Of a DNA stretch of 64,000 nucleotides, positions 3,560 to 64,000 are shown piece after piece (the stretch's first letter is position 1; the number at the start of each line of letters is the position of its first letter). Under the pieces are notes generated by a model. The model was not told the origin of the DNA, made no database searches, and saw nothing but the letters and a program-made list of their open reading frames with translations. Source of the DNA: Cellulosimicrobium cellulans. Lineage in GTDB: Bacteria; Actinomycetota; Actinomycetes; Actinomycetales; Cellulomonadaceae. Position numbers and translations under genes: made by a program. The stretch spans positions 124,001-188,000 of the forward strand of contig NZ_JAFGYF010000006.1 in the NCBI RefSeq assembly GCF_016921195.1, read 5' to 3'.

Positions 3560-7059
<3,500 letters not shown>

Positions 7060-21882: not shown

Positions 21883-21912
21883 CCCGGTCGCCCACGGCCT
21901 CCCGCGAGGCAC

Positions 21913-21958
21913 GCACGACGAGGGGCGCCGTCCGTCCGGACGGCGCCCCTCGTCGTGC
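21913..21958. terminator. Bidirectional hairpin terminator between convergent genes
   Basis: An 18-bp perfect stem (21913-21930 with 21941-21958), extended by three more pairs to a 4-nt GTCC loop. It sits between two convergent genes and has no T-run on either side, so it probably ends transcription both ways. Confidence 0.85.
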
Positions 21959-21972
21959 GCGCGGAGCCCCGA

Positions 21973-33886: not shown

Positions 33887-34001
33887 CGCTTGTGAAAGAG
33901 TGCACTAACTGTGCGGTGCGTCACGGGCGTGCGTCACACTTTCCCGGGACGAACGTCCCGAGCGGCTCAGGGGGCCTCCCCTTCGGGGCGGCCCTCTCCT
34001 C

Positions 34002-34063
34002 GCCGAGGTAGAGCCGTGGTCGCGCGAGCTAGAGCCGTGGTCACGCGAGGTAGAACCGTGGTT
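34002..34063 (+). repeat. 21-bp tandem repeat, locus A (3 units)
   Basis: Three units of a 21-bp repeat, core CGAGGTAGAGCCGTGGTC, lie at 34002-34021 (20 nt), 34022-34042 and 34043-34063. The middle unit has GAGCTAG. A conserved tail, CTTGGGTTCGACGGCGTGTG, follows to about 34098 and recurs at locus C. The array sits in a gene-free gap beside mqo; the neighbouring gene's stop lies in another CCGAGGTAG on the opposite strand (34103-34111). Confidence 0.85.
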
Positions 34064-34102
34064 CTTGGGTTCGACGGCGTGTGGTCGGGTTGGGTGGGCC
34101 TC

Positions 34103-61297: not shown

Positions 61298-62014
61298 GAC
61301 CTGACGCCCGTCGCCCAGGACTACCTCAAGGTCGTCTGGGCTGCCCAGGAGTGGGCGGACGAGAAGGTGACGACCAAGCTCCTCGCCGAGCGCATCGGCG
61401 TCGGTGCCTCCACGGTCTCGGAGACCGTGCGCCGCCTCAGCGCCCAGGGTCTCCTCGAGCACGCGCCCTACGGGGCGATCACGCTCACCGAGCGCGGGCG
61501 CAGCCTCGCGCTCGCCATGGTGCGACGCCACCGGCTCCTCGAGACCTACCTCGTGTCCGAGCTCGGGTACGGATGGGACGAGGTGCACGACGAGGCCGAG
61601 GTGCTCGAGCACGCCGTCTCCGACCTGCTCATGGAGCGGATCGACGCGCGGCTCGGACACCCGACGCGCGACCCGCACGGGGACCCGATCCCGGGCGCCG
61701 ACGGGACCGTCGTCCGCCCGCCCGCGGTGCCGCTCGCGGACCTGGTCGTGGGGGACCGGGGGACCGTGGCGCGGATCTCCGACGCCGACCCGGACGTCCT
61801 GCGCTACCTCGCCGAGATCGGGGTCGGCCTGGACACCGGGGTGGAGGTGCGCGAGCGGCGCGAGTACGCCGGCATCCTCTCGGTCGTGTGGTCGCCGCCG
61901 CGCGGTGCCGCGGCCGGCGGGGGTGAGCCGGCGCGCCCGACGCCCCCTGCACAGCTCGGGCTACGTGCCGCGGACCACGTGTGGGTCGTGCGCGCGGAGC
62001 CCGTCTCCGCCTAG
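61283..62014 (+). CDS. DtxR/MntR-family metal-dependent transcriptional regulator
   Basis: 243 residues from a GTG. N-terminal winged helix (YLKVVWAAQEWADEKVTTKL, RIGVGASTVSETVRRLSAQG), dimerisation/metal domain (HRLLETYLVSELGYGWDEVH; HAVSDLLMERIDARLGHPTR) and C-terminal FeoA-like SH3 (LVVGDRGTVARISDADPDVL). It senses Fe or Mn. Whether it binds the iron box at 28637 is unknown; the palindrome at its own start differs from that box. Confidence 0.93.
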   Translation: MDHPTDLTPVAQDYLKVVWAAQEWADEKVTTKLLAERIGVGASTVSETVRRLSAQGLLEHAPYGAITLTERGRSLALAMVRRHRLLETYLVSELGYGWDEVHDEAEVLEHAVSDLLMERIDARLGHPTRDPHGDPIPGADGTVVRPPAVPLADLVVGDRGTVARISDADPDVLRYLAEIGVGLDTGVEVRERREYAGILSVVWSPPRGAAAGGGEPARPTPPAQLGLRAADHVWVVRAEPVSA

Positions 62015-62136
62015 ACTGGCCGCCTGCCCCTGTTCTCGTCGCCGACGTCGCCGACAGCCCTCGAATCGATTCGACCCCTTCCGGTCCGAGGGCTCCACCA
62101 CCGCACTGCCCACGACGCCCGACGCCTGAGGACACG

Positions 62137-63411
62137 ATGACCGACAGCACCGCCACGCCCGCGCCCCCGGCGGACGCAGCCCCTGCGAGCGACGGACGCC
62201 CCCGCGGGGCCGGTCCCGCGCTCCTCGCGCTCGCGATGGGCGGCTTCACGATCGGCACGACCGAGTTCGCGACCATGGGGCTGCTGTCCGACATCGCGAC
62301 GGACCTCGACGTCTCCATCCCCACGGCGGGCCACGCCATCACGGCCTACGCCGTGGGCGTCGTCGTCGGGGCACCGCTGCTCACCGTCGTGGCCGCACGC
62401 CTGCCGCGCAAGACCCTCCTCCTCGCCCTCATGGCGTTCTACACGCTCGGGAACCTGTTCTCCGCGACCGCCGGGAGCATCGAGACGCTCGTCGCCGGGC
62501 GATTCCTCGCGGGGCTGCCGCACGGCGCGTTCTTCGGCGTCGGGGCCGCGGTCGGCGCGGCGGTCGCCGGCCCTGGGCGCCGGGGCCGCGCCGTCGCGAC
62601 GATGATGGCGGGGCTCACCATCGCGAACGTCGTCGGCGTCCCGCTCTCGACCTTCGCCGGGCAGCAGCTCGGCTGGCGCGCCGCGTTCGTCGTGGTGGGC
62701 GCGCTCGGGCTCGTCACGCTCGCCGCCCTGTGGCGGCTCGTCCCGGCCGGGGCCGGCAACGAGGACTCGAGCGTCCGCCGCGAGCTCGGCGCGCTGCGCA
62801 ACGGGCCGCTGTGGCTCGGGTTCGTCGGAGCGGCCGTCGGGTTCGGCGGGATGTTCGCCGTCTACTCCTACGTCGAGCCGACGATCACGCGGGTCACCGG
62901 CCTCGCGTCCGCCGCGGTGCCGCTCGTGCTCGCGATCTTCGGCGTCGGCATGACCGTCGGGACGATCCTCGGCGGGCGACTCGCCGACCGCTCCGTCATG
63001 CGCACCGTCTACCTCGGGTTCGTCTCCACGGGCGCGACGCTCGCGCTGTTCGCCCTGACGGGCCACCACCCCGTGCCCGCCGTGCTGTCGCTCTTCCTGC
63101 TCGGGGTGACCTCCCAGGTCCTCGGGCTCGCGCTCCAGACGCGCCTCATGGACCTGTCGCCCGCCGCGCCCTCGCTCGGCGCGGCGCTGTGCCATTCCGC
63201 GCTCAACGTCGGCAACGCGAACGGAGCGTTCCTCGGCGGCCTCGTCATCGCCGCCGGCTGGGGCTACCTCGCCCCGGCCTGGACCGGCGTCGTCCTCACC
63301 GCCGCCGGCCTCGCGATCATCCTCCTCGTCGGCCGCCGCCCCGTCGGCGTCGTCGCCACGGTGCCCGACGACGCCCGCTCACCTGCCGACGCCCCCGCCC
63401 TGCCGAGGTAG
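62137..63411 (+). CDS. MFS transporter (AraJ/YdhP-like DHA1)
   Basis: 424 residues. ALAMGGFTIGTTEFATMGLL, LPRKTLLLALMAFYTLGNLF and LAGLPHGAFFGVGAAVGAAV are typical of sugar-efflux-like DHA1 members. Twelve helices. The protein ends ALPR followed by a TAG that belongs to the first unit of the 21-bp repeat array, so the repeat provides the stop codon. No regulator is adjacent apart from DtxR upstream. Confidence 0.9.
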   Translation: MTDSTATPAPPADAAPASDGRPRGAGPALLALAMGGFTIGTTEFATMGLLSDIATDLDVSIPTAGHAITAYAVGVVVGAPLLTVVAARLPRKTLLLALMAFYTLGNLFSATAGSIETLVAGRFLAGLPHGAFFGVGAAVGAAVAGPGRRGRAVATMMAGLTIANVVGVPLSTFAGQQLGWRAAFVVVGALGLVTLAALWRLVPAGAGNEDSSVRRELGALRNGPLWLGFVGAAVGFGGMFAVYSYVEPTITRVTGLASAAVPLVLAIFGVGMTVGTILGGRLADRSVMRTVYLGFVSTGATLALFALTGHHPVPAVLSLFLLGVTSQVLGLALQTRLMDLSPAAPSLGAALCHSALNVGNANGAFLGGLVIAAGWGYLAPAWTGVVLTAAGLAIILLVGRRPVGVVATVPDDARSPADAPALPR

Positions 63412-63505
63412 AACCCTGGTCGGCCGGGGTAGAACCCTGGTCACGAGAGAGAGGACCCTGGTCACGCGAGAGAGAACCCGGGTCGGCGGAGGTCGAACCG
63501 TGGTC
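63402..63505 (+). repeat. 21-bp tandem repeat, locus B (5 units)
   Basis: Five units: 63402-63421 (20 nt), 63422-63442, 63443-63463, 63464-63484 and 63485-63505. Cores vary around GAGGTAGAACCCTGGTC; unit 3 reads GAGAGAGGACCCTGGTC. The first unit contains the MFS stop codon. Orientation is opposite to locus C about 300 bp away. Confidence 0.85.
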
Positions 63506-63681
63506 ATGCCCGCCGGCGGTCCGGGCGCCTGCAGTGGCCGGTCGCCCGAAGGCCCGCCTGCTACCAAGGAGCGTGCCACGACCGCCCGCGACACGACCAT
63601 GCGGCCCGCACGAGGCGTGGAGGAGCCGACACCGCCGGCAGTCGCCCGGGTGAGTGGAGACCGCGGTGAGACGACGCCGGG

Positions 63682-63774
63682 CGGGGTGGGTGGTGGTGCC
63701 GCGTCGTGGCGGGCCTGGCGGGAGCCGCGAGGAACGAGCGGCGGATGGTAGACGCGGCACCACCACCCACCCCG
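63682..63774. repeat. 24-bp perfect inverted repeat between repeat arrays B and C
   Basis: Arms at 63682-63705 and 63751-63774 are exact reverse complements (starting CGGGGTGGGTGG and ending CCGCGTC) around a 45-nt loop. The RNA would fold as a long hairpin from either strand. It lies between two inverted repeat arrays; 63506-63681 shows no gene I trust. Confidence 0.9.
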
Positions 63775-63804
63775 ACCACCCAGGGCAACCACACGCCGTC
63801 GAGC

Positions 63805-63867
63805 ACAAGAACCACGGCTCTACCTCGCGCAACCACGGCTCTACCTCGCGGGACCACGGTTCTCCCT
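63805..63867 (-). repeat. 21-bp tandem repeat, locus C (3 units, minus strand)
   Basis: Read on the minus strand, three units carry GAGGGAGAACCGTGGTC, GAGGTAGAGCCGTGGTT and GAGGTAGAGCCGTGGTT at 21-bp spacing, then CTTGTGCTCGACGGCGTGTG to about 63786. That tail matches locus A at 18 of 20 positions. Bases 63868-64000 hold a TAGGTT box (63926) and GAGGAGCGTCCCC at the edge, probably leading to a gene beyond the window. Confidence 0.85.
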
Positions 63868-64000
63868 CGACTGACGAGTGGCGTGGCTTCGGGGTGCTCC
63901 CAGCCGGGACCCAGCGACGCGCGGTAGGTTGTGCCGTGCGCGCACCGCCGTGCGCGCCGTCACGTCCGGCGCGAGCCGGTGACCCACGAGGAGCGTCCCC

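Follow-up and report, generated by a model that had tools for sequence, protein, structure and literature searches.

The segment from 63402 to 63870 of the window (the whole 64,000-nt stretch of Cellulosimicrobium cellulans DNA that was analysed) carries a structured hairpin of 99 bp together with two facing arrays of a 21-bp repeat, and both parts recur in many copies within the genus. The stems of the hairpin vary by compensating changes while its loops are conserved, most copies lie downstream of stop codons, and related species differ in which sites are occupied. As the best explanation we propose that the stretch is a composite gene-end element of REP/BIME-like character, built on a gene-3'-end hairpin whose conserved loops would be read by a factor. 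We hold this reading with slightly less than even confidence, and regard the gene-end hairpin account as the most economical one.

The gene upstream of the element encodes an MFS transporter (61981..63411, + strand; open reading frame, gene caller and Pfam MFS_1 with E 2.1e-39), the start of which is uncertain: 61981 for the longest open reading frame and 62137 according to the codon-usage caller. Its TAG stop codon at 63409-63411, read directly, lies within the first 21-bp unit of array B. The initial annotation describes this region as a gene-free 0.5 kb, but since the TAG in unit 1 is the MFS stop codon the stretch is not wholly gene-free. Array B (63402..63505, + strand) is sense to the MFS gene and has the core CGAGGTAGARCCNTGGT, as indicated by TRF (74% matches), pattern matches and the genome-wide family. 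The five units assigned to it were recovered by TRF, but units three and four exceed two mismatches in the core pattern match. Array C (63810..63869, - strand; TRF with 89% matches, and pattern matches) consists of about three units. The facing orientation of five forward and three reverse units, at 63402-63505 and 63810-63869, was confirmed by TRF. Array C is antisense to both neighbouring genes, the next gene being on the + strand.

The hairpin occupies 63679..63777 (+ strand) and was delineated by inverted-repeat search, folding, genome matches, covariation and model hits in other genera and families. The perfect 24-bp inverted repeat with a 45-nt loop that had been annotated is present at 63682-63705 / 63751-63774 and is stem P1 of this hairpin. 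It is situated between arrays B and C as described, but not midway, at 33 bp from array C. Overall the inverted repeat extends over 27 nt at 96%, with arms 63679-63705 and 63751-63777 and 45 nt between them. On the + strand, P1 is followed by a conserved strand (63706-63724), the small stem P2 (63725-63728 / 63738-63741) enclosing a conserved apical loop (63729-63737), and a second conserved strand leading from P2 back to P1 (63742-63750). The core of the proposed element is thus a conserved hairpin in which a stem of site-specific sequence leads into a conserved internal loop of asymmetric shape, and a second, short stem closes a conserved 9-nt loop. A 33-bp spacer common to other composites, as judged from copy comparison and the consensus, connects the hairpin to array C (63778..63810). 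On the other side a flank of ca. 42 bp (63637..63678) resembles the consensus GGC.GTCGCCCGG...GACCagGG.GAGaCGac derived from an alignment of 33 copies, although the flank is missing in some of them.

The 276-kb contig has six inverted repeats that are perfect over 20 bp or more and have a loop of up to 60 nt, against none in the mirror-repeat control. Folding of 63402-63870, which had been recommended as a check, gave a z of -7.2 for the + strand as RNA; the z of the 99-bp hairpin was -8.9 on the + strand and -7.8 on the - strand. Elsewhere in the window three units of the same 21-bp family form array A (33999..34062, + strand; TRF and pattern matches), next to spacer-like sequence (34063..34095) recognized by eye against the spacer consensus. 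The covariance model gave no hit for a hairpin beside array A, and its next hit in the window had an E of 1. A plasmid or phage origin of the stretch was dropped as a search with 63402-63870 produced no match in plasmid and phage collections.

The core of the 21-bp unit was matched nine times in the window (up to 2 mismatches), compared to a mean of 0.05 in 100 shuffles. With up to 1 mismatch, the genome (4.58 Mb, 23 contigs) contains 421 unit matches and a single match for the reversed pattern, and sixteen relatives of the genus have 1 to 403 each. One genome of another genus gave 21 matches; the remaining genomes of that search gave at most 3. The initial annotation held that a lack of other copies in the genome and its relatives would count against the element; such copies were found for both the 21-bp core and the hairpin. 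A tandem-dimer pattern (up to 3 mismatches) matched only the window's own genome among 394 class genomes, a sample in which this genome was the sole Cellulosimicrobium. The centre of the facing arrays, used as exact pattern, was found at 12 named loci, all from Cellulosimicrobium. The units follow head to tail every 21 bp and leave no room for spacers, which speaks against a CRISPR array.

The anatomy of the arrays was counted in six syntenic genome blocks of 188-280 kb using gene calls from a simple codon-usage caller; rows for arrays, like those for hairpins, include orthologous repeats. Of 57 arrays, 38 have a facing partner at most 800 bp away. Convergent gaps contained arrays in 19 of 254 cases and tandem gaps in 17 of 848, and none was seen in the 251 divergent gaps; these counts are not independent because the blocks are syntenic. 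The TAG stop codon of a gene lies inside the end unit in 16 of the 41 arrays with a same-direction upstream gene, a number that says little for convergent gaps since either orientation counts as same-direction there; 16 further arrays have an opposite-direction gene upstream. The 17 tandem gaps show no sense preference (10 with both orientations, 6 with antisense alone and 1 with sense alone), and the idea of arrays as sense-oriented gene tails was rejected. Close facing pairs meet at the dyad TGGTCATGACCA in 7 of 20 pairs not chosen by that pattern. The arms of facing arrays match somewhat better than shuffled ones (1.63 vs 1.93 mismatches, p = 0.011, 32 pairs, 13 of which came from the 12 loci picked by exact pattern). 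This matching is weak and not that of a strictly kept stem, and therefore no required inter-array stem is claimed.

Possibly the arrays are neutral minisatellites that grew by slippage beside terminators and have no function of their own, a proposal to which we give a minority weight. In its favor, adjacent units are more alike than random ones (1.65 vs 2.44 mismatches, 402 neighbours), degenerate units are common, and tandem gaps lack a sense preference. Unit numbers also differ between genomes G011 and G016, which have 99.3% mean protein identity (9 vs 4, 5 vs 2 and 2/4 vs 1/2 at three sites); it is this difference that bears on the recombination hotspot listed in the initial annotation. However, slippage alone cannot place one core at hundreds of positions, and the avoidance of divergent gaps and the facing partner of 38 out of 57 arrays are not expected from it.

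The 99-bp hairpin sequence has 96 matches in its own genome, and the 17 genus genomes carry between 14 and 109 each, in many cases with 100% identity across species. Relative to the inner end of an array the hairpin keeps a set distance: of 35 examined copies, 27 are followed by a 21-bp unit no more than 140 bp away, 3' on the modelled strand. The distance is exactly 33 bp in 14 of these, 27-36 bp in 25, and 49 and 76 bp in the other two. Eight copies are without a unit on the 3' side, three of them because the locus ends early. In the aligned composites consensus sequence covers the spacer and ca. 42-50 bp on the other side, which is absent from some copies. The stem mostly measures 28-31 bp in the scanned rows. 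Composite copies of Cellulosimicrobium have one stem in common, whereas the stems of divergent copies are unrelated.

Stem pairing was evaluated in two alignments. In A1 (19 distinct copies), which was not aligned to a model but from which the structure was drawn, 99.3% of the cells are paired and 16 of 23 pairs show double changes. Its covariation of 0.448 compares to 0.110 for shuffled and at most 0.111 for slid controls, and all five measures exceeded those of all 500 shuffles and all slid controls. In A2 (38 matches from several genera), which was aligned to the model so that pair counts lean to the structure, 99.4% of the cells are paired and double changes occur in 22 of 23 pairs. The covariation is 0.767 (shuffled 0.164, slid at most 0.137), with 239 two-sided and only 6 one-sided cells. 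The loops of A2 are conserved: GAGGNACGA occurs in 36, GGGYCTGGCGGGAG in 34 and CGGATGG in 30 of the 38 sequences. Compensated changes are also visible at individual genes. Between the ilvD hairpins of two genera (the second hit of L171 and L184) two P1 pairs differ and both are compensated, and the nrdE hairpins of G026, G469 and G038 have similar flanks and stems that differ by paired changes, as judged by eye. A stretch with covarying stems and steady loops across related bacteria points to a candidate conserved gene-end structure that had gone unrecognised.

The same numbers would fit a mutational by-product, in which template switching between the arms keeps them complementary, stems need no selection, and loops alone or nothing at all matter. 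The large excess of two-sided over one-sided changes and a nearly perfect stem over ca. 30 bp are what such copying would leave behind. We consider it unlikely since loop sequences are kept from genus to genus and can still be recognised in other families, which argues that something reads the element, and since uncompensated intermediates exist: the copies of G011 and G016 at site 2 have at least one stem mismatch each (by eye). G-U wobbles make up just 8 of 780 cells in the A2 stems. In 108 ordinary 3' hairpins from three blocks they amount to 3.4%, in a search that itself favours wobbles over mismatches. The rarity of wobbles argues for DNA pairing, use of both strands or arm-to-arm copying. 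It fits DNA-level pairing or arm copying at least as well as selection on RNA, and this is the main weakness of a pure RNA reading. The suggestion of a structured RNA in the initial annotation is borne out in part, as to compensating stems and conserved loops, but the form may be RNA or DNA.

Outside the genus the model derived from A1 found hits in 52 of 200 family genomes, belonging to 11 of 25 genera. It counted 41 hairpin copies in one family genome and 27 in another; up to 23 candidates per genome were scored in the family survey, making its per-genome numbers lower bounds. The A2-derived model had hits in 10 of 394 class genomes, namely the window's own and nine outside the family (9 of 393 others), with rough E-values, so that some weak matches beyond the family, at an E near 0.001, may be due to chance. 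Some of the outside-family copies have other apical loops, and the long strand of the internal loop is recognisable by eye in most. A search of 63300-64000 against Rfam gave no match to the hairpin and one sub-threshold hit (E 0.93) on the gene end and array, and the whole window yielded only a tRNA at the gathering score. An Rfam family as identity of the hairpin was therefore rejected.

Placement relative to genes was scanned in 87 rows found by loop pattern, which misses loop variants; the rows include orthologous repeats, and 11 have a predicted gene overlapping the hairpin. Just 5 of the 87 rows have a hairpin flanked by divergent genes. Most copies are downstream of at least one stop codon, and most hairpins are therefore probably transcribed as 3' UTR or intercistronic RNA, as far as gene positions can tell. 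Among 36 stand-alone rows that have a gene end on their 3' side, the stop-to-stem distance is 8-46 nt in 32. Of 28 stand-alone rows in tandem gaps, 22 have the modelled strand antisense to the gene upstream and 6 have it sense (a count that includes gene-overlapping rows and rests on rows that are not independent), compared to 6 and 11 of the 17 tandem-gap rows with an array nearby. Transcripts are favoured by the position relative to stop codons and by the preferred strand of stand-alone copies, and mobile DNA by the absence of such a preference in composites. The window copy is less typical. It lies ca. 270 bp 3' of the MFS stop with its modelled strand sense to the MFS gene and the next gene, opposite to the stand-alone habit, and the array C tied to it is antisense to the neighbours.

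Strict pairing, the abundance of units and hairpins, and the dyad centre of close facing pairs would also suit a DNA-level landmark, either a cruciform or a protein site for supercoiling or chromosome organisation. We regard such a role as quite improbable, as transcripts are indicated by the close spacing to stop codons and by the way in which stand-alone copies favour one strand.

Genes carrying the hairpin include nrdE, infB, ilvC, ilvD, typA and genes for an acyl-CoA dehydrogenase and a solute-binding protein. At the 3' end of nrdE the hairpin is present in 8 of 30 loci examined (of 57 matches), from different genera and in one orientation in 8/8. The NrdF start follows in seven of these and the eighth locus ends early; Pfam confirmed the small subunit (NrdF) for one locus that lacks the hairpin. 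In the remaining loci nrdE is followed by a short gap, by unrelated sequence or by an ordinary hairpin (by eye). The hairpin adjoins ilvD in two genera, with ilvD recognized by Pfam in L184 and from a nearly identical protein end in the other genus. In the A2 flanks examined, no U-tract like that of an intrinsic terminator was noticed next to the stem.

Orthologous sites show that occupancy changes between species. At the window's site arrays are present in 9 of 17 genus loci, and four of the six blocks have the hairpin there while two lack it; G006 has composite-like flanks without hairpin (by eye). A second comparison concerned the 3' site of a GH65 gene in 15 loci, from which the partial G003, the distant G001 and paralogues were left out, with array and core positions assigned by script and the remainder by eye. 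Seven species have the composite there. Another hairpin family is found in G009, G002 and G010, a stand-alone copy of the composite's hairpin on the other strand in G014, and an ordinary hairpin in G013 (by eye). G012 has the composite minus the hairpin core, G015 an array with a broken hairpin, and G007 no clear hairpin. Downstream of a gene that resembles ilvC in its protein end, nothing but the outer palindrome is left in G008, and at site 2 this genome has an ordinary hairpin in place of the conserved one (by eye). At one more site G000 has an array pair that is absent in G008, with two ordinary hairpins recognisable by eye in both. The hairpin is patchy even within the genus, and composites and unit numbers vary by species at the same site.

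This turnover could reflect a selfish REP- or MITE-like palindrome that is non-autonomous and mobilised in trans by an enzyme that reads hairpin ssDNA, with gene-end placement being tolerated insertion. Such a palindrome would account for the many copies per genome that are identical across species, the presence or absence and swaps of hairpin type at the GH65 site, the few stem wobbles on either strand, the patchiness after nrdE and the lack of a set strand in composites. Y1/RAYT transposases (PF01797), however, were found in 0 of 17 genus genomes, in a search whose control detected PF01797 in 5 of 14 named genomes, and a RAYT-driven REP was rejected on the absence of this transposase family. 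With edges inspected by eye, no clear target duplication or clean insertion was found. The unrelated stems of divergent copies differ from the terminal repeats of a single enzyme, though composites do have a common stem, and the hairpin persists by nrdE and ilvD across genera with paired changes. We consider this explanation rather unlikely. As to the initial proposal of a non-autonomous mobile element, the dozens of near-identical dispersed copies and the presence or absence at orthologous sites agree with it, but neither a target-duplicating insertion nor a Y1/RAYT enzyme was found.

Under the gene-end reading that we prefer, the hairpin would act as a strong 3'-end structure in transcription termination or in protection or processing of mRNA ends, and a specific factor, probably a protein, would read the conserved loops. 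In Cellulosimicrobium the hairpin appears to have been joined through the ca. 33-bp spacer to a 21-bp array, usually facing a second array, and an array touching a gene end often supplies the TAG stop codon of that gene. The composite may then have multiplied genome-wide in a REP/BIME manner. Some genes would have kept the hairpin for long, others would have lost or swapped it, and in Cellulosimicrobium it would have been amplified with the array. Several observations count against this reading. A hairpin acting as full terminator between nrdE and nrdF would be harmful, presence within the genus is patchy, no U-tract was noticed, and the arrays have no sense preference. In addition, wobbles are rare in the stems, the arms of facing arrays match weakly, and the hairpin strand is not set relative to genes where an array is nearby.

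A bolder version, possible but doubtful in our estimation, takes the hairpin as a conserved structured RNA of a class not described before, situated at the 3' ends of genes and within operons of Actinomycetes (for example nrdEF, infB, ilvC, ilvD). Its stem of ca. 30 bp and free sequence would serve as a ruler and its loops would be read by a dedicated factor, while the array would have turned it in Cellulosimicrobium into a self-multiplying cassette that hands genes a stop codon and a 3' structure. If the gene-end reading is right, a bacterial class would gain a hairpin family conserved in structure and loops, with many copies per genome and a covariance model ready, and a gene-end structure and a tandem repeat would travel together. 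It would also link REP-like spread without RAYT to the question whether such repeats serve as gene ends.

A search of open-access literature, covering titles, abstract openings and passages and including exact strings, gave no earlier description of these sequences. The element is similar to REP, BIME and REPIN sequences in being a high-copy intergenic palindrome of tandem and convergent gaps near gene 3' ends, in forming composites and in possible RNA roles, as described in PMC3733652, PMC2817692 and PMC3116915. It differs from them by a stem of ca. 30 bp that is not the same in divergent copies, by long, asymmetric and conserved loops, by the linked 21-bp tandem array and by the lack of the Y1/RAYT family in the genus. 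A REP unit is a palindrome of 20-40 bp whose hairpin foot carries an unpaired tag, GTAG or CGTC, whereas the present hairpin has 99 bp and no unpaired tag at a foot. GTAG occurs at the inner loop-stem edge of the hairpin and inside the 21-bp unit, which alone is not palindromic. According to PMC3733652, REPs with GTAG and CGTC tags belong to other phyla, and the word Actinobacteria does not occur in its text; it does mention untagged REP-like sequences for M. tuberculosis, and CGTC REPs that likewise have no dedicated transposase. The REP/BIME-like module of the initial annotation therefore holds for the many copies at gene 3' ends, but not for a Y1/RAYT enzyme or a tag at the foot. MITEs and other DNA transposons have conserved terminal inverted repeats and target duplications; here stems differ among divergent copies and are common to the composites, with no clear target duplication at edges inspected by eye.

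Other known systems show partial likeness. Intergenic stem-loops at gene 3' ends, described in parts of PMC1590033, and bidirectional terminators are likewise stable, lie tens of bases from stop codons and prefer convergent gaps. In the present element, in contrast, loop sequences are common across genera while stems differ, and no U-tract was noticed. The TAACTGA direct repeats of Beggiatoaceae are also genome-wide, short and intergenic, with a suspected regulatory role according to PMC4679880; their unit and lineage are different, and no hairpin partner is named for them in the text consulted.

The MIRU minisatellites of mycobacteria are similar in having tandem units of variable number between genes, as stated in PMC3635867. 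The Cellulosimicrobium element differs in its 21-bp unit, facing arrays and hairpin link, and does not occur in Mycobacterium. MIRU units are co-directional with neighbouring genes, and some overlap a stop codon, a feature also seen in the present arrays. The arrays studied here are not consistently co-directional, as seen in the 17 tandem gaps, and the element shows likeness to MIRU, not membership. Since unit numbers differ between close genomes, the arrays may be suitable as typing markers for Cellulosimicrobium. Along the G008 chromosome an apparent polarity of the arrays was seen among 100 of the 136 matches.

Seven contigs of the assembly that holds the window (G000; contigs C2, C3, C4, C5, C7, C8 and C11) start inside or close to arrays of the 21-bp tandem unit, as seen in their first ~450 bases. 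Long arrays of this unit therefore probably broke the assembly, and the copy numbers obtained for this genome may be underestimated. The unit itself differs between species: by eye, the loci L042, L153 and L154 show a variant, carried by some species, in which CGAGGTAGTACC... replaces CGAGGTAGARCC..., so that copies of the unit in one species may be evolving in concert.

In the related genome G004, the gap between the MFS and VKOR genes (locus L098) contains a called gene of ~0.9 kb that lies between the two arrays. Inspected by eye, its sequence looks like that of a candidate IS30-type transposase.

The slot at gene ends that is used by the 99-bp hairpin is shared in kind by a different dispersed hairpin family, CGAGCAGGTGGTYCTGGCGCG...CCACCTGCTCG, which was recognized by eye 3′ of the GH65 gene at loci L271-L273. 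Sequence resembling this second family also adjoins some composites of hairpin and 21-bp array, as seen by eye in the flanks of L141, L146 and L149. In G275, a genome from another family, hairpins of the same kind as the 99-bp one occur in pairs spaced 139 to 214 bp apart (L214, L222 and L230).

Two other repeats were noted in the window. At 21912-21960 lies a second inverted repeat, whose arms of at least 20 bp match perfectly across a short loop; it gave no match to the hairpin model when the window was searched with that model. At 6950-7002 the hexamer CACGAG is repeated almost perfectly in about nine copies.
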